Shown: positions 26,718 to 60,977 of the stretch, one piece after another
How the letters are laid out: the number at the start of each line of letters is the position of its first letter
Numbering within the stretch: position 1 is the stretch's first letter
Position numbers and translations under genes: made by a program
The notes under the pieces: generated by a model
Told to the model about the DNA's origin: nothing
The model's input: only the letters and a program-made list of their open reading frames with translations
Databases searched by the model: none
Origin: Cymodocea nodosa
Taxonomy: Eukaryota > Streptophyta > Magnoliopsida > Alismatales > Cymodoceaceae
NCBI GenBank assembly: GCA_036874045.1
Contig: CM072339.1
Location: 16,127,501-16,191,500 of the forward strand
Reading direction: 5' to 3'
Length of the DNA: 64,000 bases

Positions 26718-26766
26718 TGAACTTGGTCCTCAAAGACATTGGGTACCAAGAAATAGTTCTTCTTTA

Positions 26767-28234
26767 TAGGAGGAAATAACATCAAAATGGATTTTGGATA
26801 GTGGAGCATCAAGTCACATGACCGAACAGAAAAACTTACTAAAAAATTTTACAAATACCAAGAAAGGAAGTGTAATATTTGGAAACAAAAGCAAGGATAA
26901 AATCATAGGTATGGGCAATGTTCAAATAACTTCTACTTGTGTTATTTTGAATGTACTGTATGTAGAAAACCTAGGATTTAATTTGTTGAGTGTTATAAAA
27001 CTAATTGATAATGGATATTATGTATTGTTTGAAAACACTATATGCAAAATTATTGATAAAATTACAGATGAACTTAAGTTTATTACTAAAAGAAAAAGTT
27101 CTCTATGTATTTTATCATTACCTTCTAGTGTAGTTGATTTAAATTCATGTTTGCTAGATGAAACTAGTGATGCATATCTTTGGCATAGAAGGATTAGACA
27201 TATAAATATGAAACTGTTGCATAAATTGTCTAGAAAAAATTTAGTGAGAGGTTTACCAAAGATTAAATACTCAAAGGATTTAATGTGTGATACATGTGAG
27301 TTAGGTAAATTTCATAAAAACTCTTTTAAATCTAAAACTGATATATCAAGCAAGAGAGTCTTAGAACTTATACATATGGATCTTTTTGGACCAACAAGAA
27401 TCATGAGTCTTGGTGGTAAACAGTATGTATTTGTTTTAGTAGATGACTTCTCTAGATACATTTGGGTATATTTTCTAGCAACTAAGATAGAAGTTTTTGA
27501 AACGTTTAAAATGTATTGTAATCTTGTTCAAAATGAACATAGTGTCTTTGTTCAAAAACTTAGGAGCGATCATGGCACTGAATTTGAAAATGATCAAATG
27601 GATAATTACTGTAAAGATCATGGCATTGATCACAAATATTCTTTTCCAAAAATACTTTCTCAAAATGGTGTTTTTGAGAGAAAGAATCGATCACTTCAAG
27701 AAATGGCTAGAACTATATTAAAAGAAAATAATTTACCTCAAAATCTTTGGGCTAAAGCAGTGAATACAGCTTGTTATATTATTAACAGAAATTACCTAAG
27801 ACCTCTTGTTAATAAAACTCCTTTTGAAATTATGTTTAATTGGGTTCCAAAAATTTCCTATATGAAACCATTTGACTGTAAGTGTTTTATTCTTAACACT
27901 AAGGATAAAAGGAATAAAATTTCAAGCTAAAGTAGATGAAGGAATTTTTGTAGGTTACTCTACTAGAAGTAAAGCCTATAGAGTTTATAATAAGACTTCT
28001 ATAACCATTGAAGAATCCCTTCATGTAAGCTTCAATGAAAATTCTTTTAGAGAATCTCAATCTAAAGCTGATAATGATTATATGATCAATTTCCCAAAAG
28101 AATTAGAGATCAATAGAGAGATTGAAGATTTATCTGAGAAAATTAAAAATATGAACTTAAATAATCAAACTAATGATCAAAGTGATGTACTTTTAGATGT
28201 TGGTGAGAATATTGAGGAAAATCATAGAAATTGA
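26767..28234 (+). pseudogene. Ty1/copia protease and integrase
   Basis: Protease begins WILDSGASSHM with the catalytic DSG at 26797. A pre-integrase zinc domain follows (LWHRRIRH near 27178, then CDTCELGKFH near 27287). The integrase core keeps its three acidic positions: Asp in HMDLFGP (about 27376), Asp in RSDHGTEF (27568) and Glu in VFERKNRS (27675). A frameshift near 27890 moves the reading into 27872-28234, which carries the C-terminal EGIFVGYSTRSKAYRVYN motif. It is the best-preserved catalytic region in the copia elements here. Only the frameshift and small lesions disable it. Confidence 0.9.
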
Positions 28235-29074
28235 TGTTATTCTTCATCACATCCCATCACTCAAGTTACTGTAATATTAATGAGGGAGTTAAAACTAAAG
28301 CTTCAGTAAATTTAAACAGTATGTGTATGTTTGTTTCTATGGTGGAACCAAAAAATATAGAAGAAGCATTATTTGATAAAAATTGGATAGTGGCAATGCA
28401 AGATGAACTAAATCAATTCATCAGAAATGATGTTTGGGAATTAGTCTCTCCATCAAAAATCAATCCATAATAGGTACAAAGTGGATCTTTAGAAACAAAA
28501 CTAATGAGACTGGTCAAGTTATAAGAAACAAAGCTAGATTAGTTGCACAATGGTGTACATAGGAAGGACTTGATTATAATGAAACATTTGCTCCTATGGC
28601 TAGGTTAGAAATTATTAAAATATTATTAGCCTATGCTTGCTATATGGATTTTAAACTATATCAAATAGATATAAAGAGTGCATTTCTAAATGATTTAATT
28701 AATGAAATAGTTTATGTGAAATAACCACCTGAATTTGAAGATATTAAAAATCCTAACTATGTGTATAAATGGAAGAAAACCTTATATGGTAACCACCTAG
28801 ATCGTGGTATGAAATATTATCTACTTTTCTTGTAGAACAAGGATATATCATGGGAAAAGTAGACCATACTATTTTTATCAAGAAAGATGATAAAGATCAG
28901 ATTGTTGTTCAAATATATGTGGATGATATAATCTTTGGAGCAATTTCTGATAAACTAATAAAAATATTTTCTAAAGAGATGACTAGTCAGTTTGAAATGA
29001 GTATGATAGGAGAACTTTCATATTTTCTAAGACTTCAAATTAAGCAAATAGATAAAGGCATATTTTTAAATTAG
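28235..29074 (+). pseudogene. Ty1/copia reverse transcriptase
   Basis: The RT start is at about 28340 (VEPKNIEEALFDKNW, then NDVWELVSPSK). After a frame change near 28465 come GTKWIFRNK, KARLVAQ and LYQIDIKSAFLND with two stops. After another lesion around 28790, where part of the LKQAPR-type motif is missing, the palm region carries the YVDD catalytic motif at 28915-28929. A stop lies at about 29074. The enzyme copies element RNA into DNA in the virus-like particle; this copy is disrupted by at least two frame changes. Confidence 0.9.
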
Positions 29075-29089
29075 GAAAAATATGCAGTT

Positions 29090-29865
29090 GAAATGCTTAA
29101 GAAATTTAATTTTAATGATACAAAGATTCGAGGAACTCCTATGAGTACTTCTTTAAAGTTAGATATTGATGACATAGGAAAATCAATAGATCAAAGAAAA
29201 TATAGAAGTATGATTGGTTCTTTACTTTATTTGACAACTAGTAGACCTAATATTATGTTTGTTGTGTGTGCTTGTGTTAGATTTCAATATAATCTTAAAG
29301 AATCACACTCAATTGTTGTTAAAAGAATATTTAGATATATACAAGGAACTAAAAATTTCAGACTATATTATTCTAAGGATAGTTCAATAGATCTTATAGG
29401 ATATATTGATGCTGATTACATAGGATCTAAATCTGATAAAAAGAGTACTAGTGGCACATGTCAATTATTGGGAAATAATTTAGTGTTATGGTTTAGTACA
29501 AAGTAAAACTATGTAGTACTTTCAACCATTGAAGCTAAATATGTTGCTGTTGCATTGTGTTGCACTCAGATTCTGTGGATAAGGCAAACTTTAGAAGATT
29601 TAGATTATCTTCTAATACAACTGAGATTTATTGTGATAGTAGTTCTGTAATAAATCTTTCTAAAAATCCTGTATTACATTCTAGAGTAAAGCATATAGAC
29701 GTTAGACATTATTTTCTAAGAGATAATGTAATTAAAGGAAAAATTAAATTAGGATTTGAGCCTAGTAAAAATCAATTAGTTGATATATTTACAAAACCTC
29801 TAGATGAAAATACATTCTACAACATAAGATTAAATTTAGGTATTTGTAGGCTATGTGATGTATAA
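29090..29865 (+). pseudogene. Ty1/copia RNase H
   Basis: RT thumb/RNase H region: YRSMIGSLLYLTTSRPNIMF, then YIDADYIGSKSDKKSTSG with its catalytic Asp at about 29409, a stop at 29504, a frameshift near 29560 and the end EIYCDSSSVINLSKNPV, HIDVRHYFLRD and LVDIFTKPLDENTF. The last motif is the usual C-terminus of copia polyproteins. The product ends at 29865. Confidence 0.9.
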
Positions 29866-30925
29866 AATGCTTAAACTCCACAAAAGATAAATATTATTGA
29901 TGATGTTGTTTATCTCATAGATATTATATACTTATCATAAATATCTAAGTAATATCTAAATTGCTACATAAGATACTATGTATTTACAATAAAATTATTA
30001 TAGTATCTTATTGATTTTACTTATTTTTCTAAGTTTAATGGTTTTCAAAATTTTAAGTGGAAATGTTAATGAAAAACATTAAATTCCTCTGAATTCCTAA
30101 AATTTTGATTAAGTGTTTTCTTTGGATCAATGAAAGTGCATATGATCAAAAATGAGTTTGACTTGATTTATTAAACTTGTAGAATAATTTATATGTAAAT
30201 CATATTAAACTACTAATCAAAAGTATAAGCTTATTGAAATTGATTCATATTTTCAGTAAAATTATACAAGTAAAATTGTATGAGATTTGTGCTTTATTGC
30301 ATCTGTATTAATGAAATACATATATACCGTGCTTAAAATAAAAAATGCTTACAAAGTGAAAATCTTTGAGAGTTTATTAATCAATTCGATCACGAGCTTC
30401 TTGTACTTCAGTAGATAAGTATGTAAGGATTGTAGTCTTGAAAAAAGATTCTTTAAACCTAGCAACCTAAGGTCCTAATTAGACCTAGGATTATTGACTG
30501 AAAGCTCATTACATGGGTACATTAGAAAGTTCTTGTATGATTCAAGCTTTTCAAATTAACTTTTAAAGAAAATTATCAATATTTACTGTTTTGAAAAAAT
30601 AAAAGTTGTTTCATTAAATACAGATATATTTGAATTGAATATAATTTCTACCAATATGATTGCTGATTTGTTGAATCTAAATTAGTACTTTTGAAAATGT
30701 TTATTTGAGATACATTCCTTTATTCTCCTTGTGTTAATTATATTAAGTTTAAAGTTATATTTTTGATTCATATACAGTTGGAGTTGATTCTAGAAATCAT
30801 TTTTAATGAATTCAGGATAATAGAAAATTTCTGAAAAGAAAATTTTAAAGTATAGTTACAATTACCACCTATTTTATACAAGTATACTTTGTATGTTATT
30901 AAATATATTTAAAGTATATTTGTAG
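29866..30925 (+). other. copia 3' noncoding region, shared with gypsy family
   Basis: About 1.06 kb without a frame. From about 29930 it can be aligned by eye with the region just before the gypsy 3' LTR (43870-44900 plus; 48720-47700 and 59710-58690 minus). Anchors include GATCACGAGC, GTACATTAGAAAG, TATGATTCAAGCTT, TCAAATTAACTTTTAAAG and CTGTATTAATGAAATAC. Confidence 0.75.
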
Positions 30926-30938
30926 GGGGAGGAATTAC
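30924..30938 (+). other. copia polypurine tract
   Basis: AGGGGGAGGAA lies just before the putative LTR start TGTCTAAAATAG (30942). It is the likely primer for plus-strand DNA synthesis. Confidence 0.6.
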
Positions 30939-32839: not shown

Positions 32840-33438
32840 TGTTTAGAATGAAAAAGTACATATTATTAACGGTTAAATGATAGTTAATTGCATAATATTT
32901 AGCTTATCATATGAGAATTAAGCCATTATGTTATAATTACACTATTATATGCTTTAATTAAAGAATCTACTTAATTTCGGGAAATTAATGTCAATTTAGT
33001 ATATTTTTGAACTGTCGATAAGTTGCAGGCTGTGAAATTCTTAAGTATCCGAAATGCACATGAGCATCGAATAGTTAAATTTATGCACGTGTTTTATAGT
33101 TAAATCAACGAAGAAAGTCTGTTAAGTTATCTGTAACTCCACGGACTATTTATTTTCTAATATGCCACTATAGCGGTTGCAGAAACAGGACGGTTAGAAG
33201 AAAAACCACGATTGCATGTATTGCGCAGGGAGAAGAAATCATCGCCGTTGATATGAATGAAGGAAATCCAACCAACCATTCAAGCAGAAGTAGTTACTAC
33301 TGAAGAAATATAAAAGAAAAAGAATAGGCATAAAGATAAATTAACTAAGTAAAAATAGAAGTAACAAATCCAATTTTTTTGGTACGTTATTGGAGATCTA
33401 ATCAGATATTCTGGTGTCGTGTTGGGAAAACACAAACA
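32840..33438 (+). mobile_element. 5' LTR of plus gypsy element, internally deleted
   Basis: Starts TGTTTAGAATGAAAAAG, ends AAAACACAAACA. It is 599 bp, against 1,846-1,859 bp for complete LTRs. The sequence runs normally to AATATAAAAGAAAA, then jumps to AGAATAGGCATAAAG near the LTR end. The full LTR has TAAAAGAAAA at both places, so about 1.2 kb was lost between short direct repeats. Primer site follows at 33446. Confidence 0.85.
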
Positions 33439-33445
33439 AGTTTTA

Positions 33446-33462
33446 TGGTGCTGTTGCTGAAG
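33446..33462 (+). other. gypsy primer-binding site, decayed
   Basis: TGGTGCTGTTGCTGAAG is a mutated form of the Asp-tRNA-type primer site TGGTGCCGTTGCCGGGG kept by the minus element at 54347-54363. It lies seven bases after the LTR end, followed by GAATT repeats. Confidence 0.8.
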
Positions 33463-33530
33463 AATTGAATTGAATTGAATTAATATAAGCAACTGTTAGA
33501 GCTGTTTTGTTTTAATAGCCAGAGTGTTGT

Positions 33531-36500
33531 GTGTTTTCTTATGTAATTGAGAATATGGCATATGCTTATGCTCAAAGATTTCTGAAACCTGTAATTAGCA
33601 TATGTGAATTCTGCAATTCTAAAGGATATGACATTTCTAACTGTTTGAAACTGAGATATTTACAGATGGTTAGATCCCATGAACAACAAATGAATTATCC
33701 TCAATATAATAGAGCTAAGTATGAGAATTCTATAGTTTACCCAACTGATGGTCAGTATAGAGTGTGTAATATGTTGAGAGACACGAAAGTTTGGGATAGG
33801 TATGACAAACTAGAGCGTAGTATAGAGCAAAACTTAGACAAACTAGAATACTTTATGTGTCAGCAACAAGAAGTCAATCAATTAAACTATAAGGAAGCAT
33901 ATTCAGAACCTAAAAAGGATATAATTTACAAAACTGAAAAAACCATAATGAAAATTGATCAAAAATTGAATGCAATGAGATTAGATGATCTGGAAAGAAA
34001 ATTAAAATCATTAGACGAATATACAATGAAAATACAAGTTATGCAATAGGACAATGAAAATTATAATGTTATAAACCTACATAATTTGCAAAATATACAG
34101 CAAACAGAAAATATTAATGCAAGAGAATTTAAAGAATGCACTCTAAAACTAAAAGCAATTGAAGATCATAAACATGAAAATGATATACAAAAACATCATG
34201 AGAGTAACGAAAATCTGGAAGATGTTTGTGTAACATTAAAATCTGAAATTGATATACCACCAAGAACTCAAAATGAAAATGATATGAAGGTGGATAAGAG
34301 TAAAAATCAAAATGATAATGAAAATGTAATAGCTGAAAATCTAGAAATCACTAAAGAACAATCTGAATCTGCTAATGAAGCTAAAAATGATCAAACAAAT
34401 CAACTAAAAGAAAAAGAATCTTTTAAATCACAATCCTTAGCACCCTATCCTGAAAGATTACAACAAACAATACCTGAAAAACAAGAAAAAATCAAAGAAA
34501 TTTTTGAAAAAGTACAAGTTAACATTCCTTTGTTAGATCTATTGCATAAAATGCTACCTTGTGCTAAATTTCTGAAGGATTGGTGTACTAGGAAAAGAGA
34601 GCGAAAAGTTCTTAGAAAGGTCTTTTTACCTAAGCAAAGTAGTTCCCTATTTCTGCCACAAATTCCTAAAAAGTTATTTGATCCTGGAATCCCTGTTATA
34701 TCATGCACCATAGGAAATACCATTCTAGAAACAACCTTAATAGACTTAGGTGTAGGTATAAATGTTATGCTAAGTGATATACTTGCATCCTTAGGATTAG
34801 AAGGCTTAACTCCTACTAGTACGGTTATTCAATTAGCTGATAGAAGTATAAGATACCTTAGAGGAAAAGTAGAGGATGTTTTAATTAAAATCAAAAATTT
34901 TATATATCATATTGATATTGTAATTTTGGATTCCCAACAAATTAAGCATAAAAATGGTGATGCATCTTTAATTTTGGGAAGGCCATTTTTAGCAACATCA
35001 GGGGCTGCTATAAATTGTAAAACTGGAGTAATGAAGTTAGCATATGGTAATGATGATACTCAATTAAATATTTTCAAACCAGAAAGGTTTGAGGAATTAG
35101 AAATGTCCTTACATATCATAGATTTTTTAGAGGATGAAGGAGATATGTTAGAAGATGTGATTCAAGAAGAATTAAATAGGCAAATCAATTCTGAAACTTT
35201 AGAGGAAAGTGAAAGCATAAATATAGGAGGAGATTAGGAAGAAATTGATTTAGAAAATGATGATGTTCAATTAGGAGCTCTAGCTTCTGATGGGCAACAT
35301 TTAGAATTAAAACCTTTACCTCCTGAATTAACCTATATATTTCTTGAAGATAAATGAACCTGTCCAATCATTATTGCTTCAGATTTAAAAGAGGATCAAA
35401 TAGTTAAATTAAAAGATGTAGTAAAAAGTTATAAAGAAGCAATAGGATGGACTATGACTGATATAAAAGGGTTAAGTTCAACTTTATGCTGTCACCACAT
35501 ATATTTAGAAGAGAATGCTAAACCTATTAGAATTCCTGAGAGGAGATTAAATCCAAATCTTAAGGTAGTTAGGAAGGAAATAGTGAAATGGTTAGATAAT
35601 GACATAATTTATCTGATTTCTGATAGCTCGTGGGTTAGTCCAATCCATGTAGTTCCCAAGAAATCAAGATTAACAGTTATTAGGAATGAAAGTCAAGACT
35701 TGATACCTACTAGAATTCAATCAGGCTGGAGAGTATGTATAGACTATAGAAAACTGAATGCTGTGACTAGGAAAGATCATTTTCCTTTACCTTTTATAGA
35801 TCAAATGTTGGAAAGATTAGCAGGGCAAGAATATTTTTGTTTCCTAGACAGGTATTCAGGTTATAATCAAATTCCAGTAGCATTAGAGGATCAAGAGAAA
35901 ACAACTTTCACATGTCCTAATAGAACTTATGCTTTTAAGAGAATGCCATTCGGATTATGCAATGCACCAACTACCTTTTAAAGGTGTATGCAGGGCATAT
36001 TTACTGGAATGACTAAAGATTTCTTAGAAATATTTATGGATGATTTTACAGTATATGGCAACTCATATGAAGTTTGTTTAAGCAATTTAGACCAAATATT
36101 AAAATGCTGTGTGGAAAAAAATCTGGTTTTAAATTGGGAAAAATGTCACTTCATGGTTAAACAAGGAATAGTCTTAGGGCATGTTGTTTCTAAGAAAGGG
36201 TTGGAAGTAGATAAAGCTAAACTAGAAGTAATTTCTAATCTACCAGACCTAAATCAGTAAAAGATATTAGATCATTATTAGGACATGCTGGTTTTTATAG
36301 AAGATTTATTAAAGACTTTAGCAAAATAGCTAGACCTTTAACTAATCTATTAAAAGATATCCCATTTAACTTTGATAAAAATTGCAAGGAAGCATTTTTC
36401 AGACTTAAGACAAGCTTAGGTATGTCACCTTTTAGGTTAGTATATGGAAAAAGTTGTCATTTACCAGTTGAAATAGAACATAAAGCTTATTGGGCATTAA

Positions 36501-36907
36501 AAACTCTGAACACTAATTTAAATCAAGCTATTGAAAATAGAAAAATGCAACTAATTGAATTAGAAGAATTTAGAAATGAAGCTTATTCGAAGATTGTAAG
36601 AGAAAAAGAGAAAATAAAATTTTGGCATGATAGAAAAATTATTCCAAAAAGCTTTGAAATAGGATAAGAAGTATATCTTTATATGGCTAGACTCCATAAC
36701 CATCTAGGAAAATTAAGATCTAGATGGGCAGAACCTTACATAGTTCGAAATATTTATCCTTATGGAGCTATTGAAATTGAAAATCCTAAAAATCAGAATA
36801 TATTTAAAGTAAATGGACAAAGAATTAGACCTATTCTGGAAACACCAAAAAGCTCCTTTAGAATTATAGAAGAAGTTAGAGTAGAGGACTACTTGAACTT
36901 TACTTAG
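33531..36907 (+). pseudogene. Athila-like zinc knuckle, protease, RT and integrase tail
   Basis: One frame from ATG 33531 runs to 36260 with only in-frame stops (near 34048, 35235, 35355, 35979). It opens with a zinc knuckle, CEFCNSKGYDISNC, whose His ligand is Tyr here (His in the minus copy), and a Glu/Lys/Asn-rich coiled region. Protease follows: CTIGNTILETTLIDLG (DLG about 34742), then QLADRSIRYLRG and ILGRPFLATSGAA, all typical of Athila. RT shows WRVCIDYRKLNAVT, FLDRYSGYNQI, FKRMPFGLCNAPTTF and the catalytic FMDDF (about 36034). After a frameshift near 36258 the RT end ([19 protein letters not shown]) is joined at about 36420 to the integrase tail ([15 protein letters not shown], then [12 protein letters not shown]). 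RNase H and the integrase zinc and catalytic core are therefore deleted. No capsid gag precedes this ORF. Confidence 0.9.
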
Positions 36908-37165
36908 TAAGAAATCAGTTTTTATGTTTATATATATAAAAAAAAACACATTAAAATATAAATATATATATATATTTAAAATATAAAAATCGTTACGGTT
37001 CAACCGACCGAATCCATCGGTATGACCAGAACATAAAAATATATATATATATTAATTTTCAGAAAAAATGTTGGTTTTACTGAAACATAGTATCAGTTCA
37101 ACTGAAAAAAATTAGGTCTGACCAAAACATAGTATCGATTAAGCCGGTAAAAAAAAAAAAAAAAC
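36908..37165 (+). repeat. CGGT hairpin units (short array)
   Basis: AT-rich sequence with inverted pairs such as CGGTTCAACCGACCGAAT and GTATCGATTAAGCCGGT around GGTTTTACTGAAACATAGT. It is the same repeat that is longer in the minus element at 52425-52860. It ends in an A-tract (37147-37165) that is the break point of the deletion in the minus element. Confidence 0.7.
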
Positions 37166-37207
37166 AGAAAAACTATTATCTATAGTATTTTTATTATTAT
37201 ATCTGTT

Positions 37208-37320
37208 TGTACGAGGAGTCTGTTGAGTTACGTCTAACTCAACGAGCTTACTCCGTTGAGTCTTGAGTTAGTCAACGAGCTTATTCCGTTGAGTTAATTG
37301 TAACTCAATGGAGTACTGTA
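37208..37320. repeat. hairpin-word array 1 (ACTCAACG / CGTTGAGT)
   Basis: Alternating copies of GTTGAGTTA and TAACTCAACGAGC with short spacers, forming several possible 10-13 bp stems between pol and the next ORF. Confidence 0.8.
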
Positions 37321-37494
37321 GCTAAGATCGTGGATGAGATAGTAATAGTTGGTTTGGGAAATGACTCGATTACCTGCCTAAACTTAGGGCTTATTTATCT
37401 TAAACATAGGGTTTTGGGGGCATTATCTGGCAAATCATTTAGAATCTAGAACAGTAGAAATCAGAGAGATTCCGTGTTGTTGAGTAACTCCACG

Positions 37495-39688
37495 ATGAGG
37501 AAGATGACACCTGAATTCTAGGAAGAGGCTGTTGATACATCAGAATTTCTAAAGGAATCAGAAGAATGGCACACGCGGTAGAAGATCAGAAATACGATGA
37601 GAGAAAAAGAGTTACAGAAGATAGAATCTGAACTTTTTAGATTAAGAAGAATATTAGTAGATTGTGGTATACAAATACCTTAGATAATGGAGACACGAAT
37701 CAGAGTAGCAACAGAAATTGTAGTTAGTAAAGAAAGAAAAATCAGGCCGAACAATGAAGTAGCCCTAGAGCTAATCCAGCATAAGGCCAGATTATGGTTC
37801 AAAAGGTGCATTGCTGGTCGTGGAAGTTGAGAAATATGGCGGTAGGAACAATAAGAGGCAACTGAAGAACAAGACGAGCCGACTGCTGAAAGACTTGTTC
37901 TTGAGGAACAACAGCCAGGACCTTCTGTTCCACCATTTAAGCCGTTGGCACGAGCAGAAATGATGGGGCCTTCGATTGAAGAAGAGTTAAAGGAATTTCA
38001 AACACTGGTTCAAGTTGGGAAAAACCAAGGAGAATCAGAAGATTTGACAGTGGCTAAAGCACACCTAGTGTTTGATGCACTTTACAAAAAGAGGGCTGCA
38101 GAAAAGTTGAAAGCCCAATATAAAATCAAAATGGAATAGCATCAAGAAGCTGCTGCCAAACCTACAGTAAAAGGAGATGAGACTGGTCCTTCAAGACTAA
38201 TAGAAAAAGTTAAACATGAAGAGTCAGTACCTGTGGCTCGAAGGCCTGTAGAGCTTACTTTTGTAGATTTAATCTCAGAAGAAGAAGAGGAAGAACAAGC
38301 ACAATTAATCAGAAAAAGGAAAGGAAAAGAGATAGTACCTGACTATCAAGAAGAGATTAAATCTGAGATACCAATGTCAACAGGGCCTATGGAGCCAATT
38401 TTTATAAACCTGCTATCCGATTCTGAGGAGTAGGAGCAAAGACAAGAAGAAAATCAGGCAGAAATTAATCTCCAGCTTGTACAAGAAGAAAGAACAGAAA
38501 TTAGGGCTGAAACTGAATTACCCGTGACTCCATCCCAATCTGTTACAGAATCAGAAAGAACAGTAACAAAACAGATTGGTAGTTAGGAGGAAGAAGAAAG
38601 AGTAAAAAATGAAGAGGCTGAAAGAAGCCATTTGGACAAAAATAACTTCATAGATTCCACTGAAGAGCAAGCAGCAATTTATGGAAAGAATTCAAGACAG
38701 AGTGGAGAGTTCTGCCGACTCACCACCACAGACAGAAACAGAAACAAAAATTCAGGAATCTGTAGAGAATGTTCAGATGCAGCCTATAGAAGAGGAATAT
38801 CAAGAACAAACCCCTCTGGAACAGCAAAGTCACATTCCTGACCCGACTAAAACAATAGTTCTGAATGAAGTACATTTTTGTAGTCAGGAAGTTTATATCA
38901 AATACCAAGAGATTAGGGGTTATGATATCATTTACAGTAGACTAGTAAATTGGGATGGAATGCAAGAAATCAAAGATTTATTTGAGTTCCAAGGTCTACT
39001 AAAGTTCATTTCTCAAGAAAGAGGGCATGCAGTATATGAGAATTTAGTGCCCTGTTTCTATGCAAATTTAAGAGAAGGAAAAGGAGGATTAATTTCCAAC
39101 GTGGAAGAAGTTGATGTACAGATAACACTAGAGCTTCTCCACAACATTTTTGGATTAAAGAATGAAGGTCTAAAAATTTTGGAAGACACAACTGCTGTCG
39201 AGTGGACTGAACAGGAAATCAAAGATTGTTTAGCTATCAATCCTGGTGTGCCTTTATTAAACAGATTGAAGCATTTAAGTGGTAAAGCACACATGATAGC
39301 TAACATTCTGATTAAAAATGTCTATCAATGACAGGGCCATGACATAGAATTAAGTCAATTTATCAAATGGGCCACATATACAGTTGTAAATAGGATTCAA
39401 ATAAATTGGTCTGCAGTTTTTATCTCCAAGCTGAAAGTAGTAAAGAAAAAATTATTTTATGGAGATTTGATTCCACTACTGATGGTAGATTGTATTGATT
39501 TCACGAAATGGACATCAAAAAGGATCAGATCAAGAACCATTTCAGTGAAAGAATACAGAAATTTTGTAGCTACAGAGATAGCTGTACCTTCTGGAGGAAT
39601 TACAGGAGCTGTAGAGAGAATTAATCAATTAAAACTTCAATTAGAAAAACTCCAGAAGGAAGTAGATGAACTTAGGAATAGAGATTAA
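37495..39688 (+). pseudogene. Athila-type 3' ORF (Transposase_32-like)
   Basis: From ATG 37495 the first frame carries at least nine in-frame stops, mainly TAG, in a Glu/Lys/Arg-rich region with acidic patches (ISEEEEEEQ near 38275). Near 38680 the reading moves to another frame, which holds the conserved domain: LFEFQGLLKFIS, LVPCFYANLREGKGG, ITLELLHNIFGLK, LAINPGVPLLNRLKHLSGK, then a stop at 39330. After it come NRIQINWSAVF and a heptad-like end (INQLKLQLEKLQKEVDELR). The core looks like the domain called putative plant transposon protein (Pfam Transposase_32) in the ORF after pol of Athila elements. Its role is unknown; an envelope-like role has been suggested for the position. The minus element at 45739 has lost it; the third element carries it at 63431. 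Confidence 0.65.
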
Positions 39689-40096
39689 ATTGTAGTGTTC
39701 GTCTACTTGTATAAAATTATATGATGTATTTACACTGTAAATTGATTCATATGAATGAATATAATTTTTTAGATGTACTTTTAATACGTGTTTTGGATGT
39801 GAAATGAATGGAATTTATTGAATATTATATAATTTGTGGAACTTTGTGAATGAATATGTAACAGAATTACAATTTGCTGAATGACAAGATAAATGCTTAA
39901 AAATTTCTGCATGTTGCAAGGTAAAATGTAAATTCTGCATAATATAAAATGACCTGCAAGTTAAATCTTTATATAATGTTCAAATTTAAATGAATTTTGA
40001 TTAAAATGAGGCATTAATGACATAGATTTAACTTTATTTCAGTTAGTAGAATAAAAAAAACAGAGAGGAATTTATGAGAGTAAAACATAGAGGTTG
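39689..40096 (+). other. AT-rich spacer between 3' ORF and gag
   Basis: No frame. Conserved in the third element (about 63430-63050, minus). Confidence 0.6.
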
Positions 40097-40290
40097 CCAT
40101 GTGTTAATTCAACGAAGTAAGTTCGTTGAGTTAACCGTAACTCCACGAGGTCAGTAATATAATATAAGGTCACTTCGTTGAGTTATCTGTAACTCAATGA
40201 AGTTAGTCCGTGGAGTTAGCAATAGTAACCAGCTGTGTTCCGTTAAGTTATCTGTAACTCAACGAGATTAGTTCGTGGATTAAGTAGAAC
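40097..40290. repeat. hairpin-word array 2, upstream of gag
   Basis: About five copies of the hairpin word, for example TTCGTTGAGTTATCTG then TAACTCAATGAAG. Also kept in the minus elements at 52185-52360 and 62835-63020. Confidence 0.85.
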
Positions 40291-40424
40291 GGTTATTCTT
40301 TTAACTACGAATGAAACTTCGTCGGCTTCGCGGTTACTAAAATTTGAAATTAATAGTGATACACGTACCCATAAAAATAGGAACCACGATGCAAGACACG
40401 TTATTGCAATGAGATTTATTCACT

Positions 40425-40510
40425 TTATGGATGTACATTATATATATAAATCAGAATGTTATTTACGAGTTACCAATACTTTTAAAAGAAAGGAGAATGC
40501 GTTGGAGGAA
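40425..40510 (+). promoter_or_regulatory. possible internal promoter for gag and F-box
   Basis: TACATTATATATATAAATC (about 40435) is a TATA-like run about 170 bp upstream of the gag ATG and downstream of hairpin array 2. The block GGTTACTAAAATTTGAAATT, then ACCACGATGCA, is conserved in all three elements. Because gag sits behind pol, a separate transcript would be needed to express it; the promoter itself is inferred only from position and a TATA-like motif. Confidence 0.35.
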
Positions 40511-40609
40511 CTAGAAGGCGAAGCAGCTGATTCGAATTCATCCGACAACAAATATTTACTAAATGGAAAGCTTCAAACTGGTATGTAATTAATCTTCTCC
40601 TATTAATTT

Positions 40610-41953
40610 ATGAGCACATGGACTTGTTCTTTAAGCACTAAATGATTAGTAAGAACACCTACCCAGGAATTTTCATCGCAAAGGAGTACTGAAAAATTTT
40701 CTGAACTGAACTTTAATGAAATTCTTTGGGGTGTAGTTAACCTTTCTTTAAAAGAGAACATAGAAATGACTGTTTCAGTAGAAAAACCATTAGGAGAAAT
40801 TCTGTATTCGGAATTAGTTGATGAACCTTCATGTATTCGATTGCCAAACTTTGAGGGAGATAGGTTTGAACTGAAATCTAATTATATTAGTTAATTACCA
40901 CATTTTCATGGATTAGAAAGAGAGAATGCCTATTATTTCCTTAGAGAATTTAATGAAGTTTGTCAAATGATGAAAATGTTGAACATGAGTATAGATGCTA
41001 TTAAATTTAGATATATCACTTTTTCTTTAAAAGACACAGCTAAGAGATGGTTATATACTCTATTGCCTGATTCAATTTCTACATGGACTGAATTTTGCTC
41101 TGTTTTTCTGGAAAAATATTATCCAACACATCAAACGATTAAAAAGAAGAAAGAAATCTTAATGTGTAGCCAAAAACAGGGTGAATCATTCTGGAAATAT
41201 TTTGAAAGATTTAAAGATTTACTAACTCAATGTCCACATCATGCAATGAGTAAAGCATAATTAATAGGTATAATTTATGAAGGCATAGATGTTTCAACAA
41301 AATCTTTATTAGAATCTACTTGTCAAAATGGATTTTTAAAGTTATGTACTGAAGAAGCATGGGCATATTTAGAAAACTTTGCAAAAAGAACTGCATAGTG
41401 GAAAAACTCGGTTGAAGCTATTGTAGATAAAAAAATATTGCTAAGAGGAATGCATGAAATAGATTCAAGTACTATGCTTGAGGTGAAATTAAATGAATTA
41501 ACAAAGAAAATAGAAGAGTTATCATTAAATCAAAAGCTAGCAGAAAAGAATGCAAACATAAATGATTTAGATATTATTTATGCTAGAAACCACAGAGATA
41601 ACTTGGGAAATTCTTATAATCCTAATTAGAGAAATCACCTGAATTTATCTTGGAGAAACAACAATTTCTAGGGAGGAGAAAATGTAAATGAGAAGAATAT
41701 AAGTTATGAAGCATTACTAGAACAAGGATCTAGAATAGAGAAATTAGAAAAGATAATCTAATAATTAAATAATCGTCTAGATTTTGTATTTAGAAGTGCT
41801 GCAATTCAAAATCAGAATAGAAATATGCCACTTAGACAGAAGGAACCAATGGAAGCTAGACCTACTGGAGGATTGCCAATACAAGCTATACATAATCTTG
41901 TCAATAGAACTGTTAATGAAATTGATACCTCTTCTAGGAGGATAACTGAATGA
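40610..41953 (+). pseudogene. Athila-like capsid gag, located after pol
   Basis: ATG 40610 and stop TGA 41951-41953 bound 448 codons in a single register, with about seven internal stops (for example at 40643, TAA in IS-LPH, TAG before WKN, TAG in NPN-RNH). The N-terminus holds SCIRLPNFEGDRFELK and YYFLREFNEVCQMMK. The retrotransposon gag core lies at about residues 120-200: SLKDTAKRWLYTLLPDSIS, WTEFCSVFLEKYYPTH, FWKYFERFKDLLTQCPHH. The C-terminal third has the Athila gag signature NPNxRNHLNLSWR. There is no zinc knuckle in this ORF; it is at the start of the pol ORF instead. Gag builds the particle. In Athila elements gag precedes pol, so the position here is abnormal. Confidence 0.88.
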
Positions 41954-41978
41954 AGCAGCATATCTGAAGCAACTATCT

Positions 41979-42131
41979 GTATGTATATATGTTTTATTTT
42001 TAGTTAATAGTATCGTAGAGTTAGTTCTTAACTCAACGAACTTAGTCCGTTGAGTTATTCCTTAACTCCACGAGGGTGTGCAGTAGTTATGTTAATTTTC
42101 TGTTTCTACTAAATTTGTGTGTGTTATATAG
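41979..42131 (+). other. 153-bp GT-AG intron between gag and F-box
   Basis: Starts GTATGTATATATG after exon end CAACTATCT, ends GTGTGTTATATAG before AATCAACAAATGG. It is AT-rich and contains a hairpin word (ACTCAACGAACTTAGTCCGT around 42030). The element at 45739-56229 has the two exon ends joined exactly (junction 50472/50473). The third element retains the intron, but its donor reads AT instead of GT. Confidence 0.85.
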
Positions 42132-42140
42132 AATCAACAA

Positions 42141-43301
42141 ATGGAATTGATGCAATTACCGTTGGATGCACTAAGGGAAGTACTGAGTAACTTGTCAGCT
42201 AAATATCTGTGCAGGTTGTGTTGTGTATCAAAGGAAATTAAAGACTATATTGAAGAAAAATATTTTCATGGACTACAAGCTACAAAAATGACTAAGATTA
42301 GAGATGGATTCATATGGAGGTCATTTAATCGTAGTTCAATTAATCATGAATATCTTGCTATAGAAGAAACTACTGGAATTCCACCCAATACATTAGAAGG
42401 AATAAATCATATTATGGGGATAGATGAATGATTAATCATATACAGGATGAGACCAAGGTATGCAAGTTTATTCTTACCTGATATTTTGATAAGAAATCCT
42501 ATAACAGGAGAAGAATGGAATATAGGAAGATCTAATAGATTTGAAGTACCAACTGTAAATTGTGGATCGGCCTTAATATTTTATGATAAAAATTTTGCAA
42601 TTCCTGAGAAATTATATTATTGGAGACCTACAGGAAATTGGGGTAAAGATTTACGCTTAAGTGTGTATAATTTTCTGAATAGATCTTGGAATGAAAATAA
42701 TATGATATATCTAGGACAGAAATCATTAATTAACCAAACACATGTCATACTTGATGGATATATACATCTTGTCACAGATATATCAATTGCATTTGGATCT
42801 GATTTATACATAGTGAGCATAGACAATTATGATGAATATATAGAAATTTTACCTATACCGAGTGAAATAGCTAAACCACCATCTACAGAATTTAATAAAA
42901 TTCAAATAGGAATGTGGTATAATGAAGAAGATGATCCTACTTTATGTTTGATAAGATGGTGGGATGAATTAATGAAATTTCAAATATGGATTATGGAAGA
43001 CATTAATGAATGGAAGTGGGAAGAGGAATATATTGAAATAGATGTAGAAATAGAAACTGCTACATTACCCTCGAACCAAAAAGGATCCCTTTCTGCATTT
43101 CATATCATTAATGGTAATACACTTGTATATGGAATTCATAATATATTACACGCTTACAAATTAAGAAGGAACAAGAACAACATGAAAACAGAATTAATAG
43201 CAAGAAGAACTATGCCTAAAAAGTTTGCTTGGACTGATACATTTATTCCATTTGTTCCTACTTTTCAATCATGTTCTTCAGTTGTGATTTTGTGTGTTTA
43301 A
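42141..43301 (+). pseudogene. F-box protein gene carried by the retroelement
   Basis: ATG 42141 to TAA 43299-43301, 386 codons with one TGA stop at codon 97 (42429-42431). Residues about 4-45 form an F-box: LPLDALREVLSNLS, then CRLCCVSKEIKDYIEE. F-box proteins bind SKP1 in SCF ubiquitin ligases. The remainder resembles plant F-box-associated C-termini: LIRNPITGEEW (about 116-126), then YYWRPTGNWG, RLSVYNFLNRSWN and SIDNYDEYIEILP, which usually binds substrates. The minus element carries the same 386-codon ORF with a different single stop. The N-terminal exon is joined to the gag region by the intron. Host-gene capture is the simplest origin; a role against host silencing, as for plant viral F-box proteins, is speculation. 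Confidence 0.82.
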
Positions 43302-45035
43302 TGTTGTGTGTATTCTACGTTTACTTAAAAAAAAAATATAGTTTTCATTTTATTTTATAAAAGAAAAAAAAAAACAAAATATCAATCCAGTTTGTTGGTA
43401 TCTGTTCTGGGAAACCAATTAGCTTGCTTGTGAGCCACCAAAGGCATAGGAGCCTGGGTTCCACACAAGACATTGAATTATCAATATCTGTTAAATGTTA
43501 TTTTGCTATATATTTTTTGCTTTTATCTGTGAATGAAAAGTTTTCAGAATCAAAAATCGAAATATGTAGAAGGAGATACAAACAAATCAAGGTATGTAAC
43601 TGATTACTTGTCCTGAATTTTAAATCAACAAAATTGTATTCATGTCTGCTACAATTACTATATTTACTGCCAAATCTTTTACATTGAGGATAATGAAAAA
43701 TGTAGGTATGGGGGAGAGGTAATTAAAGTAACATCCATGTAAGTTTGTTAATTAAAAAAAAAAAAAAAACTTAAAATGGTACCGTAAAGTTTTGTGGAAA
43801 TTGAAAATTTTTATGAACTTGCTGTAACTATCCGATAATTGAGACTATAAAATTTATAATTTGTAACTGCTTGAATGTTATATTTAGAAGGCTATATATG
43901 ATGCTATAGAATTTACTATTTATGCAAATCTAGATATAGTATCTTATGTTTTTTCTGAATTTCATTAGTTTAACAGTTTCACGATTTTAAAATGAAATCA
44001 GAATGCTTAATGAAAAATCAGTAAATTATTTGAAGTCCTGAAGGAGCTAAGATGTGAATTCTAGATTAAATGAAACACATATGATTAAAGATACATTTAA
44101 TTTGATTGATTGAACTTGTAGAATGATTTATGTGTAGATCTTATTAAACTACAGAAAAAGTATGAGCTCACTATTATGGATTCATATTTTCAGTAAATGA
44201 TAGAAGCAGGACTATATGAGATTGGTGTTTTACTTCATCTGTATTAATGAAATACGTACATATACAATATGTGATTAATGCTTTGTTTTGTGTGTATTTA
44301 AAAAAAAAAAAGAGAAAAATTTGAGACTTTATTGACTTGTTTGATCACGAGCCTTTTGTACTTGAGCAGATAGGTATGCAAAGATTTTTTCCCTGAAAAA
44401 AAAAAAAAAAAGACTCTTGAAATCTCGCAACCTAAGATCCTGATCAGATCTGGGATTGTTAACTTAAAGCTCGTTACATGTGTACATTAGAAAGCTCTTA
44501 TATGATTCAAGCTTGTCAAATTAACTTTTAAAGAAAAAAAAGAAAAAAGAAAAGAAAAAAAGAACATATACTGTTCTGAAAAGATACAAGTGTTTTTTGA
44601 AATACAGATATCTTATGAATCGAGTATATTTTCTGTTATCTAGAATTGCTGAAATATGAATCTGGAATTGACTTTTGAAGTTGTTTTAATAGAGATACAA
44701 TTCTTTATTCTACTTGTCTTAATCATATTGAATTGGATTGTACTTTGATTCATATGTTGTTGAAATTTCTTCTAGAAATCTTATTGGAAAATTTAGGATA
44801 GCAGATGATGAAAAGAAGAACAAACGATAATATAATTAACACCTACGAGATGATGATATACTTTGTATGTAATTTGCATATATTCTAAGTATATTTGCAG
44901 GTTTATTACTGAAACATACAGAATATATATTTTTTTATGCTGAACGAAAGAAAAAATAAGAAGAGGAATTAATTCTAGCACTTCTTGAAAGACCAATTAA
45001 TTAGATCTTAGTTTGCTAAGGGACTAGCAAAATTT
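43302..45035 (+). other. gypsy 3' noncoding region
   Basis: About 1.7 kb without a frame. It contains a locally GC-richer block (43388-43480: GGGAAACCAATTAGC, then GGAGCCTGGGTTCCACAC) conserved in all three copies. It also has an internal polypurine-like tract GGTATGGGGGAGAGG (43706-43720), and from about 43870 the part shared with the copia 3' region. Confidence 0.7.
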
Positions 45036-45049
45036 AGGTATGGGGGAAG
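45036..45049 (+). other. gypsy polypurine tract
   Basis: AGGTATGGGGGAAG directly abuts LTR start TGTTTAGAATG at 45050. The same junction is at 47584/47585 and 58555/58556 on the minus strand. Confidence 0.9.
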
Positions 45050-45738
45050 TGTTTAGAATGAAAAAGTGTATATTATTAACGGTTAAATGATGGTTAATTG
45101 CATAATATTTAGCTTATCATATGAGAATTAAGCCATTATGTTATAATTGCACTGTTATATGCTTTAATTTAAGAATCTGCTTAATTTTGGGGAATTAATG
45201 TCAATTTAGTACATTTCTGAACTGTCGGTAAGTTACAGGCTGTGAAATTCTTAAGTATCTGAAATGCACCTGAGCATTGGACAGTTAAATTTATGCACGT
45301 GTTTTATAGTTAAATCAACGAAGAAAGTCCGTTGAGTTATCTGTAACTCCACGGACTATTTATTTTCTAATATGCCACTTAGTAGTTGCAGAAATAGGAT
45401 AGTTGGAAGAAAAACCGCGGTTGCATGTATTGCGTAGGGAGAAGAAATCATCGTCGTTGATATGAATGAAGGAAATCCGACCGACCATTTAAGCATAAGT
45501 AGTTACTACTGAAGAAATATAAAAGAAAAGAAGAAAAAGAAGGAGTGTGTGATCAATGGACGCCTAGTGTGTATAGAGGAGGAGCACCGAGCTTTCTGCA
45601 CGCAGTATCGGTAATTCTCCAAAGTACCACACCAACCATCGTTACCACCACTATCACTACCATAATCACCAACCATTGGAGGTCTGTGAGAATACTTTTT
45701 AGATGTTGGGTCGATTCCAAGCCAAACACGATGCATGA
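45050..45738 (+). mobile_element. 3' LTR of plus gypsy element, part 1
   Basis: From TGTTTAGAATG to the left target-duplication copy CATGA (45734-45738). It includes the TATA-like AATATAAAAG near 45520 and the hairpin GTCCGTTGAGTTA / TAACTCCACGGAC. It continues at 56235 after the nested element, and lacks the U3 cassette present in the nested element's LTRs. Confidence 0.88.
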
Positions 45739-47584
45739 TGTTTGGGTTTTCCCAGCACTACACTAGAAAAACTTGGATTTGTTACTTCTATTTTTACTTA
45801 GTTAATTTATCTTTATGCCTATTCTTTCTTTTAGAAGTAAACAAATAACCTTTAATACAATTTAGATATTAATTCCAATTTGTACTTTAACTACAAGTGC
45901 ACAATGTCTATTGTATCAGTGTGCAAGTACATGTCGATCCCATAGGGAAGTGCTGACGAATTTAAGAAATGTTTGATTGTGAACAATTCAAATTTATATT
46001 CAATAAGCACTTCGTTGAGTTACAGTTAACTCGACGGACTAAGTTCGTTGAGTTATGGCTAACTCAACGGACTATCCTCGTGGACTTAAGTTAACTCCAC
46101 GAGCCTGTCTCTTCTTTATAATACTGCTATTTACAAAGGAATTCGGCCAACCATTGGGCGATTCCACAGATTGTAAATAACATTAATTAAGCTTTTTAAT
46201 GCTAGTTAACATTGGATTTATCATTAAGCAATAATAACATTCAAATGATTCAAACATTAACCATTAAAATCTTTAAGTTGTTTTGTACGAACCAATTTTA
46301 GTAAACTATAAAATTAAAACTAACATAAAACAATCATAAAACTGATACAGATAACATTAATCACGATACAACACAAACAATACAACATACAAACAAAGAT
46401 AAATTGTTTTTGGTATTTTTGTTTTTGATGAAATGGGCGAAAGGTGAAATGTAAAGTAATCTTACTTGACAGTAAATACTTCCAACACTACTTGCAACAC
46501 GATTACACCACTGAAAATTAAACCACTTACAATTTTGTCTCCTCTCCCTATAGAATCGCGAGTCCAGAATTGCAAGATGATCTCCTCTTCAACATACAGG
46601 CATCAACCCGAAGCCAAAGCTAAAAGCTTTACGATCTCCTGAAATATAAGTCGGCGCTTGGTGAAAATGTCTTCCCTTCCCGCGACGTGATCACTCCTCA
46701 CACTGGTTGTCAGGCATTGTGTTTGGCTCGGAATCGACCCGACATCAAGCAAGTATCCTCACAGACCTCCGATGATTGGTGATTATAGTGGTGATAACGA
46801 TGGTTGGTGTGATACTTCGAAGAATCGCCAATACTGTTTGGAGAAAGCTCGGTGTTCCTCCTCTGTATACACTAGCCGTCCATCGATCACACACACTTCT
46901 TCTTTTTTTCTTCTTTTCTTTTATATTTCTTTAGTAGTAACTACTTCTGCTTGAATGGTCGGTTGGATTTCCTTCCTTTAGATCAACGGCGATGATTTCT
47001 TTCTCCCTACGCGATTGAATTCCTGCGTGATACGTGCAAACATGGTTTTTCCTTCCAACTATCTGTTCCTGCAACCGCTACAGTGGCATATTAGAAAATA
47101 TATAGTCCGTGGAGTTACAGATAACTCAACGGACTTCCTTCGTTGATTTAACTATAAAACATGTGCAAAAATAACAACTTAAGTTTATAACGCTAACCTA
47201 ACGCGTTGCCTTAGTGTATTTTCATGTAACTCAACGCGTGTAGTTATACTAACTTAACGAGTTATAACATAAGTAAATCTACCAGCTCTCAACACGTGTC
47301 AGCAGTAGTTTAAACATAAAATAACATTTTGGAGAGTTATAGGTATAACTATCCGATGCTCAGATGCATTTTTGGATACTTAAGAATTTCATAGCCTGCA
47401 ATTTACCGACAGTTCATAAATGTACTAAATTAACATTAATTCCCCAAAATTAAGCAGATTCTTCAACTAAAGCATATAACAGTGCAATTATAACATAATG
47501 GCTTAATTCTCATATGATAAGCTAAATATTATGCAATTAACCATCATTTAACCGTTAATAATATGCACTTTTTCATTCTAAACA
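45739..47584 (-). mobile_element. 3' LTR of nested minus element
   Basis: 1,846 bp; differs in length from the 5' LTR by one 13-bp indel (CTCAAATACAACA at about 55030, absent near 46385). Ends TG...CA on the minus strand. It contains the U3 cassette (about 47165-47345) that is shared with the copia LTR. Confidence 0.92.
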
Positions 47585-47597
47585 CTTCCCCCATACC
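47585..47597 (-). other. polypurine tract of nested element
   Basis: CTTCCCCCATACC on the plus strand, the complement of GGTATGGGGGAAG, abutting the LTR. Confidence 0.9.
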
Positions 47598-49302: not shown

Positions 49303-50463
49303 TTAAACACACGAAATCACAGCTTGAGAACATGATTGAAAAGTAGAAACAAATGGAATAAATGTATCAGTCCAAGCAAACTTTTTAGGCATAGTTCTTC
49401 TTGCTATTAATTCTGTTTTAATGCAGTTCTTATTCCTTTTTAATTTGTAAACATGCAATATATTATAAATTCCAAATACGAGTGTATTACCATTAATGAT
49501 ATGAAATGCAGAAAAGGATCCTTTTTGGTTCCAAGGTAATGTAGTAGTTTCTATTTCTACATCTATTTCAATATACTCCTCTTCCCACTTCCATTCATTC
49601 ATGTCTTCCATAATATATATTTGAAATTTCATCAGTTCATCCCACCATCTTATCAGACATAAAGTAGGATCATCTTCTTCAATATACCACATTCCTATTT
49701 GAATTTCATTAAATTTTTCAGATGGTGGTTTAGCTATTTCACTCGGTACTGGTAAAATTTCTATATAATCATCATAACTGTCTATGCTCACTATGTATAA
49801 ATCAGATCTATATGCTATTGATATCTCCGTGACTAAATAGATATAACCATCAAGTATGACATGTGTTTGGTTAATTAATGATTTCTGTCCTAGATATATT
49901 ATAATGTTTTCATTCCAAGATCTGTTCAGAAAATTATACACACTTAAGCGTAAATCTTCACCCCAATTTCCTGAAGGTCTCCAATAATATAATTTTTCAG
50001 GAATTGCAGAATTTTTATTAGAAAATATTATAGCTGACCCATAATTTTCAGTTGGTGCTTCAAATATATTAGGTCTTCCTATATTACATTCTTCTCCTGT
50101 TATAGGATTTCTTATCAAAATATCAGGTAATAATAAACTTGTATACCTTGGTCTCGTCTTGTATATGATTAATCTTTCATCTATCCCCATAATATAACTC
50201 ATTCCTTCTAATGCATTGGGTGGAATTCCAGTAGTTTCTTCCATAGCAAGATATTCATGGGTATTTGAACTACGATTAAATGACCTCCATATGAATCCAT
50301 CTCTAATCTTAGTCATTTTTGCAGCTTGTAGTCCCTAAAAATATTTTTCTTCAATATAGTCTTTAATTTCCTTCGATACACAGCACAGCCTGCACAGATC
50401 TTTAGTTGACAAGTTACTTAGTATTTCCTTTTGTGCATCCAACGGTAATTGCATCAATTCCAT
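49303..50463 (-). pseudogene. F-box protein gene, nested element copy
   Basis: Same length as the plus copy (ATG 50463, 386 codons), with one TAG at codon 43 (50335-50337); from codon 50 onward it is open to the end. The F-box reads LPLDAQKEILSNLSTKDLCR, and the C-terminal region matches the plus copy closely. The stop at codon 43 is shared with the third element, so it predates their separation. In the spliced arrangement of this copy an open frame runs upstream of the ATG through the exon junction (NEAAYLKQLSNRQ) into the end of gag, in a different register from gag, starting at 50661. Confidence 0.82.
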
Positions 50464-50497
50464 TTGTCGATTAGATAGTTGCTTCAGATATGCTGCT

Positions 50498-52365: not shown

Positions 52366-52424
52366 TCTAAGTTTCACTAACGAAAGTTTTCTATTCTGTC
52401 TTTTTTTTCTTTTTTTTACAGGTT

Positions 52425-52865
52425 TAATCGATACTATGCTTCGGTCAGACCTAAATATTTTTTTATTTTTTTACTTTCTTTCGGTTGGACCAATACAATG
52501 TTTCGGTAAAACCAATATTTTTTCTAAAAATTAATATACAATTTTTTTTCCAGTTTAACCGATGCTATGCTTCGATTAAACCTAAATATATATATATTTT
52601 TTTCTTTCGGTTGAACCGATACTATGTTTCGGTAAAACCAAATTTTTTTAATGTTCCGGTCATACCGATGCTACGCTTCGGTTAGACCTAAATATTTTTT
52701 ATTTTTTTACTTTTCTTTCGGTTGAACCGATACTATGTTTCGGTAAAACCAAATATTTTTTAATGTTCTAGTCATACCGATGCTACACTTCGGTCAGACC
52801 TAAATATTTTTTAATTTTCCGATCATACCGATGGATCTAGTCAGTTGAATCGCAACTATTTTTAT
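52425..52865. repeat. CGGT hairpin array, expanded
   Basis: Seven to eight units. Each has an inverted pair, for example GGTTGAACCGATAC / TTTCGGTAAAACC or GGTCATACCGATG / TTCGGTTAGACC, separated by T-rich spacers. The plus element has about three such units. Confidence 0.85.
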
Positions 52866-52959
52866 GTTTGATATATATAATTTTTTTAATGTTTTGTTTT
52901 GTTTTTTTTTTTTTTTTTAAGATAAACATATATATATAAACATAAAAACTGATTTTTTA

Positions 52960-60968: not shown

Positions 60969-60977
60969 TTGTTGATT

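Follow-up and report, generated by a model that had tools for sequence, protein, structure and literature searches.

The 64,000-nt stretch of Cymodocea nodosa DNA analyzed in this work (contig CM072339.1, positions 16,127,501 to 16,191,500; GC content of 30%), referred to below as the window, harbors a nest of three copies of a single long terminal repeat (LTR) retrotransposon family. In this family the capsid gene, gag, is placed downstream of pol. We consider it probable that the copies belong to an abundant Ty3/gypsy family of Athila-like type, whose rearranged gene order is inherited and whose capsid would be expressed separately from Pol. A complete element would read: LTR, primer-binding site (PBS), a pol gene with zinc knuckle, protease, reverse transcriptase (RT), RNase H and integrase, an additional 3' open reading frame (ORF), a unit with capsid gag and an F-box gene, a polypurine tract and the second LTR.

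The plus element extends from its 5' LTR (32840-33438) to its 3' LTR (45050-45738), inside which the minus element is inserted; the second part of this LTR starts at 56235 and abuts the 3' LTR of the third, also minus-strand, element. The features distinguished within the nest are as follows (UTR, untranslated region).

32840-33438, plus strand: 5' LTR of the plus element, starting with TGTTTAGAATG and ending with ..AAACA, matching the LTR starts and ends of other copies; shortened by an internal deletion
33446-33463, plus strand: PBS of the plus element, diverged; aligned by eye to 54363-54346 and to genome copies, and too diverged to be reported by the PBS scan
33555-36667, plus strand: pol of the plus element, with the N-terminal zinc-knuckle region, pre-protease region, protease and RT (RVT_1, 5.6e-15), broken by stops and frameshifts
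37222-37309, plus strand: palindromic repeat cluster (GTTGAGTTA / TAACTCAAC) upstream of the 3' ORF
37497-39688, plus strand: 3' ORF, broken, with a PF20167-like C-terminal half (start approximate)
40105-40263, plus strand: palindromic repeat cluster upstream of gag
40439-40449, plus strand: TATA-like box upstream of gag, found with changes in six gag copies (putative role)
40563-40580, plus strand: predicted gag leader exon of six codons
40581-40666, plus strand: predicted intron 1 of the gag leader, GT..AG, 86 bp (GT and AG kept in 6/6 copies)
40667-41953, plus strand: gag, broken by stops, with the capsid and a C-terminal region and without a zinc knuckle
41979-42131, plus strand: intron 2 between gag and the F-box gene, GTATGT..TATAG, 153 bp
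42141-43301, plus strand: F-box gene, with the F-box and an F-box-associated region (FBA_1 0.056, below the cut-off; F-box 3.1e-10 in a genome copy)
43302-45049, plus strand: 3' UTR, with the polypurine tract (45036-45049) at its end
45050-45738, plus strand: 3' LTR of the plus element, first part
45739-47585, minus strand: 3' LTR of the minus element
49303-50463, minus strand: F-box gene of the minus element, with one stop
50472-50473, minus strand: splice scar of the minus element, the exact site of the missing intron 2
50498-51784, minus strand: gag of the minus element
53047-53740, minus strand: integrase part of the minus element, fused to the pol N-terminus by a deletion
53797-54231, minus strand: pol N-terminus of the minus element, zinc knuckle CEFCNSEGHDISNC (C-x2-C-x4-H-x4-C intact)
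54346-54363, minus strand: PBS of the minus element (TGGTGCCGTTGCCGGGGA)
54371-56229, minus strand: 5' LTR of the minus element
56235-56848, plus strand: 3' LTR of the plus element, second part
56848-58555, minus strand: 3' LTR of the third element (inner end approximate)
58556-63999, minus strand: third element, which leaves the window; 3' ORF (63999-63599), gag (62444-61159), intron 2 with a mutated donor, F-box gene and 3' UTR

An earlier note on this DNA had read the plus element as PBS, zinc knuckle-protease-RT-integrase tail, 3' ORF and gag, and this order is borne out by the ORFs and by Pfam matches, with the PBS lying, as noted, at 33446, 3' of the LTR end at 33438. The pol ORF opens at 33519 and its ATG at 33555 is located 91 nt past the PBS. 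RNase H and most of the integrase are deleted, leaving the protease and RT joined to the integrase tail; the protease is represented by weak Pfam matches only, and the His of the zinc knuckle has been lost (CEFCNSKGYDISNC). The capsid domain PF03732 (Retrotrans_gag) was recognized at 40895-41260 (E 2.1e-18). The stretch ending at 43301, previously taken for gag, had to be re-assigned: gag stops at 41953, and 42141-43301 is the F-box gene. Similarity of the 3' ORF to PF20167 remained below the Pfam cut-off both in the plus element (E 0.0094) and in the best genome copy (2.7e-6), and no match of PF03078 (Athila ORF-1) to the ORF following pol was obtained.

In the minus element the order is PBS, zinc knuckle-integrase and gag, in agreement with the previous description, the protease, RT, RNase H and the start of the integrase having been lost. 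Its pol ATG (54231) lies 114 nt past the PBS, so the proposed PBS-to-pol gap of less than 100 nt is true of the plus element and not of this one. The two LTRs (1.85 kb) are 95.0% identical, and the perfect target-site duplication (TSD) which had been ascribed to one of the copies was found here (CATGA, at 45734-45738 and 56230-56234), demonstrating transposition of a copy with late gag. The third element likewise carries the 3' ORF followed by gag, as had been noticed before; its pol lies outside the window.

The recurrence of this gene order was followed in a genome sample in which contig C1 was represented by 20 pieces of 10 kb at even spacing, to which three adjoining 10-kb pieces, one of 2 kb, five taken from other contigs and a single 5-kb piece were added. 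Together with the window, the 287 kb of readable genome stretches (six contigs; one 2-kb piece consisting entirely of N was excluded) gave 351 kb of examined sequence. Six gag copies were identified, three in the window and one each at 6.3, 11.9 and 20.3 Mb of C1, by a profile search of 346 kb, and the same six were returned by blastn of the 351 kb. In all six, gag is late, i.e., located after pol, the 3' ORF or the stretch following pol: pol itself is visible upstream in three (the plus and minus elements and the 11.9-Mb copy), the 3' ORF alone in two (the third element and the 6.3-Mb copy, where pol is out of reach or missing), and, at 20.3 Mb, nothing but the untranslated stretch downstream of the integrase. 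The F-box gene follows gag in five of the copies, the sixth being cut short.

A scan of the 351 kb for the PBS (up to four mismatches allowed) revealed eight sites, to which the diverged PBS of the plus element, recognized by eye, was added as the ninth. Eight of these nine junctions (seven belonging to the main family, the eighth to a sister family described below) lead within about 130 nt to a zinc-knuckle pol, and at none of the nine does a capsid gag stand ahead of the zinc knuckle or pol. The LTR/pol boundary at 6.3 Mb (L006) was left out of this count, since it lacks the PBS as well as the initial 1341 bases of pol. The remaining junction, at 20.3 Mb, leads to gag and the copy has its own TSD (GGAAG). 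It was considered as a candidate for the canonical, gag-first form and rejected, as pol and the 3' ORF are deleted and its leader holds the untranslated repeats that normally follow the integrase; it is therefore a deletion product of the pol-then-gag order. Hence, intact copies with gag directly after the PBS, which the earlier note had named as the observation that would speak against an inherited architecture, were not found in the 351 kb.

The most complete copy is located at C1:11,890,001-11,910,000 and consists of the LTR, PBS, zinc knuckle-protease-RT-RNase H-integrase, 3' ORF, gag, intron and F-box gene (RVT_1 1e-26, RT_RNaseH 8.4e-37, rve 1.2e-14, PF20167 2.7e-6, Retrotrans_gag 2.5e-20, and F-box 3.1e-10). 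Its frames are nearly open, with long pieces of pol and one stop in gag. Further deletion derivatives were also noted (zinc-knuckle region-3' UTR, C6; integrase-F-box, 18.9 Mb; 3' ORF-F-box, 16.1 Mb). Within the evenly spaced C1 pieces, the family covers 39,978 of 200,000 bases at 70% identity or more (9 of the 20 stretches) and 29,027 at 80% or more (8 of the 20), and therefore constitutes a major, successful lineage. This confirms that the order belongs to a large family and not to the nest in the window; with late gag in 6/6 copies and a near-complete copy 12 Mb into C1, the view that the architecture is inherited was upheld.

Gag of this family is split, the capsid being encoded in the 3' unit and the nucleocapsid zinc knuckle at the N-terminus of Pol. 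The C-x2-C-x4-H-x4-C motif is carried at the pol N-terminus by the minus element, the 11.9-Mb copy and the sister element, and was absent from all five gag copies tested, of the six; reciprocally, the pol N-terminus (388 aa) gave no Pfam capsid match at E 0.1. The 11.9-Mb gag keeps a NPNWRNHPNLSW stretch, which we take to be typical of Athila gag. Structural models of a gag piece and of a pol N-terminal piece were poor (mean predicted local distance difference test (pLDDT) scores of 35.9 and 42.7, from alignments of three and two rows, respectively). There were no PDB sequence matches up to E 1 for the F-box protein, gag or the pol N-terminus, and no relatives of gag or RT in viral_contigs.

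Selection was assessed by pairwise ratios of nonsynonymous to synonymous substitution rates (dN/dS), with stop and gap codons dropped, pairs excluded when they had fewer than 60 codons or a dS not exceeding 0.02, and diverged relatives at 4.9 and 16.1 Mb included in some of the sets. Against the most diverged copy, gag showed values of 0.17-0.24 (5/5 pairs), with a median of 0.47 for all 15 pairs. Medians for other regions were 0.18 (27 pairs) for the C-terminal and 0.68 (15) for the N-terminal part of the 3' ORF, and, within pol, 0.43 (33) for the N-terminus, 0.35 (27) for protease-RT, 0.17 (25) for RNase H and 0.25 (15) for integrase. The F-box gene had a median of 0.67 (28 pairs), and in comparison with the 16.1-Mb copy 0.45-0.56 in six of seven pairs and 0.78 in the short seventh. 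Deep comparisons show purifying selection on gag, which, by its substitution pattern, evolves like a functional gene; for the F-box gene the argument is weaker.

The 3' unit has the anatomy of an intron-containing gene. The minus element lacks intron 2 with single-base precision, and 4/4 other copies covering the site keep it; exact loss in a TSD-flanked copy is most simply explained by splicing of its RNA before reverse transcription. Upstream of gag, all six copies keep GTATGTAATTAATC, followed by an AG 86 bp further on (101 in one copy) ahead of the gag frame, and the predicted leader runs into gag without a stop in five of the six, a later frameshift breaking gag in the third copy. The F-box acceptor has the same phase as the gag acceptor, so the leader could serve both genes, and the frame is open to the F-box ATG in three of four copies tested. 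The TATA-like box, about 120 bp upstream of the leader, may act as a promoter. The F-box gene, the introns and the sister family had no place in the earlier note.

The GTTGAGTTA/TAACTCAAC palindromic half-sites form, apart from the two clusters listed above, further clusters at 42015-42071 and 46014-46100 of the window. The same clusters occur in the near-complete copy (L010:2010-2096 and L022:6499-6573, 3479-3637 and 1656-1712), one ahead of each of its four genes, i.e., at the LTR end, before the 3' ORF, before gag and in the F-box intron; additional ones are found within the LTR. They are possible promoter or RNA elements. Predicted RNA folding was strong in the LTR cluster alone (z -8.6; -1.9, -2.1 and -3.0 for the others).

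The sister family is represented by a pol-only element at C1:16.105-16.114 Mb (L013:5094-9999 and L031:1-4291). It starts in the same manner as the main family, with a PBS followed by a pol ORF that includes a zinc knuckle (CSYCHVKGHDESIC); a stop and a frameshift interrupt pol. The 1.5 kb following the integrase contains neither gag nor any sense ORF longer than 67 aa. Its LTRs differ at 2 of 1536 positions (99.87% identity) and a TSD, ATAGC, was recognized by eye; judged by its sequence, this element moved recently. Therefore, if a capsid is needed, the Gag of another element served it.

According to the explanation that we favor, the genomic RNA initiated in the 5' LTR would be translated as Pol, and gag would be produced from a subgenomic spliced mRNA driven by an internal promoter located just upstream (TATA-like box, six-codon leader and 86-bp intron), the same leader exon being presumably able to splice in frame to the F-box exon too. 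The Gag:Pol ratio would therefore be set by two promoters or by splicing, and not by one polyprotein. The capsid would assemble with Pol in trans, and gag-less relatives, e.g., the sister family, may be served by it as well. A bolder extension, which we offer only tentatively, pictures a lineage with the gag-pol polyprotein dissolved: Pol with a zinc knuckle of its own, the capsid as a spliced gene with its own promoter, a leader shared, through alternative splicing, with an F-box protein possibly turning the host ubiquitin machinery on silencing factors, and the capsid as a public good mobilizing gag-less sisters. Several observations weigh against the favored explanation. Each of the six gag copies has at least one stop, so no intact working copy was seen; the leader ATG is missing in two of the six copies (kept in four); the third element has a mutated intron 2 donor; and the 11.9-Mb copy contains a stop between the F-box acceptor and the F-box ATG. 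Moreover, dN/dS of gag is 0.41-1.19 in the 10 close pairs of the 15, as expected of decaying copies. The 11.9-Mb copy was covered to 442 of the 1748 bases of the 3' UTR, short of the 3' LTR, and the sample, 289 kb including 2 kb of N, is a small part of a genome exceeding 160 Mb.

Since three elements are nested in the window and some of the pieces are inverted, recombination among a few neighboring copies could have been thought to create the observed order. Dispersed copies with the same order led us to reject this explanation, which has practically no chance of being correct: late gag occurs at three other C1 sites (6.3, 11.9 and 20.3 Mb), the whole order is present at 11.9 Mb, and 5-bp TSDs flank both the minus element and the 20.3-Mb deletion derivative. 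A different objection is that the rearranged copies are passengers with a captured gag and F-box gene, mobilized by a gag-first master family residing elsewhere that supplies Gag and Pol. Every copy is indeed somewhat broken, and loss of gag is documented, in the accessible portion of the source, for other plant LTR families (PMC11963269). We nevertheless regard such an offshoot as unlikely, because a gag-first copy was not found in the 351 kb, the rearranged 11.9-Mb copy contains a nearly full pol, the zinc-knuckle-first pol is common to the sister family, and dN/dS of gag, the 3' ORF and pol is well below 1 in deep comparisons.

The remaining alternatives concern the 3' unit itself. Gag could be obtained by splicing of the full-length LTR transcript, similarly to retroviral env, or by reinitiation, with no internal promoter involved; full-length RNA was evidently spliced at intron 2, as the minus copy shows, yet such a route would have no need of the TATA-like box, leader exon and intron 1 that are retained upstream of gag, and we view it as a possible, though not the leading, solution. 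The host-gene-like anatomy of the unit (a TATA-like box, two introns and an F-box gene) might also suggest that a domesticated host locus, made up of a gag-derived gene next to an F-box gene, was captured and travels as cargo, playing no part in the particle. This seems rather improbable, given that gag contains the NPNWRNHPNLSW stretch, which we assume to be Athila-type, that gag was retained in the derivative devoid of pol and the 3' ORF, and that it is under more constraint (deep dN/dS 0.17-0.24) than the F-box gene (0.45-0.56 in 6/7 pairs and 0.78 in the seventh). Separate expression of the capsid by an Athila-like family with inherited capsid-last order thus remains the explanation that we prefer.

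Several further observations concern neighboring or related sequences. Degenerate tandem repeats of the GGTCTGACCGAAGCATAG type lie directly after the integrase (window positions 36950-37164 and 52387-52900; L016:4250-4690), and this spot is an end point of the deletions in the minus element and the 20.3-Mb derivative. A third family encodes a protein that shares about 33% identity with the 3' ORF product (L012:5008-6075, L029:9090-9947 and L024:3091-3774, all on the minus strand); no pol of its own was seen beside it, no dedicated search having been made. A piece of the LTR (positions ~321-425) recurs in LTR-like sequences of other families (L011:5334-5448; L012:7353-7457 and 8645-8750; L013:4703-4807; L029:1244-1349). 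Within the window, 29949-30926 (plus strand) is about 71% similar to the family 3' UTR (43877-44901) and is perhaps a relict element just upstream of the plus element, and 24605-29503 (plus strand) is a broken element with zinc knuckle, integrase and RT-like ORFs, presumably of Ty1/copia type.

Concerning classification, the family has TG..CA LTRs, a PBS, a polypurine tract, 5-bp TSDs (CATGA and GGAAG; ATAGC in the sister) and, in the 11.9-Mb copy, the PROT-RT-RH-INT order, whereas GAG does not precede PROT; membership in Ty3/gypsy holds by the features tested, gene order excepted. The name Athila-like rests on the PBS, the gag motif and the layout, and is partly our presumption; the PBS, in particular, is one that we take to be of Athila type. 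No tRNA gene to pair with it was found in the window or in 29 of the 31 sampled loci. With Athila, Calypso and Diaspora, i.e., the Athila clade, the family shares the PR-RT-RH-IN order, a TGGCGCCGTTGCCGGGGA-type PBS and the 5-bp TSD, and differs in having the capsid gag after pol and a zinc knuckle that opens pol.

Outside this clade, partial analogies may be drawn. BARE-2 is a gag-less passenger. Foamy viruses make Pol apart from Gag, from its own message, and differ from the present family in that their gag is still first and in their hosts and envelope.

That gag comes first in known elements, as the earlier note maintained, agrees with the available sections of the plant LTR reference survey, in which Ty3/gypsy elements are defined as GAG-PROT-RT-RH-INT (PMC6317226), and of the description of Diaspora, an Athila-clade element with one gag-pol polyprotein, gag first, and the zinc finger in gag ahead of the protease (PMC1142308). 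In the same sections, the PBS of Diaspora pairs with tRNA-Asp (PMC1142308). It is placed 5 bp from the LTR (7 in the present family); Diaspora has similarly long LTRs and lacks the extra 3' ORF, which is a feature of Athila. As far as the accessible text on Arabidopsis Athila goes, all elements with pol have gag, and the pol-less ones contain gag or gag plus env (PMC2410132). The 20.3-Mb derivative resembles the latter in keeping the LTR, PBS and gag without pol, but its gag is reached via the untranslated stretch normally following pol and is then followed by the F-box gene. For Retand, the portion of the source at hand reports 7 of 63 clusters without GAG and 2 of 63 without GAG and AP, and contains no description of a downstream gag (PMC11963269); the sister family likewise moved recently without gag. 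In a rotifer element, ORFs downstream of pol were described, in the part available, as env-like (PMC5408684). Among the matches listed in the open-licence literature, to which the search was confined (subscription journals being outside its scope), no description of gag after pol was found.

The gag-first arrangement is treated as a constant of LTR retrotransposons, and the present family departs from it. It should be stressed that the reference survey, in the part available, removed every time the elements with an unexpected domain order as likely mispredictions (PMC6317226), and families similar to this one would therefore have been filtered out. The capsid-last order suggests that the family makes its capsid by a route of its own. 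If the capsid indeed comes from its own spliced message, the way in which plant elements set the Gag:Pol ratio could be tested directly, and the F-box partner hints at a counter-defence worth searching for.

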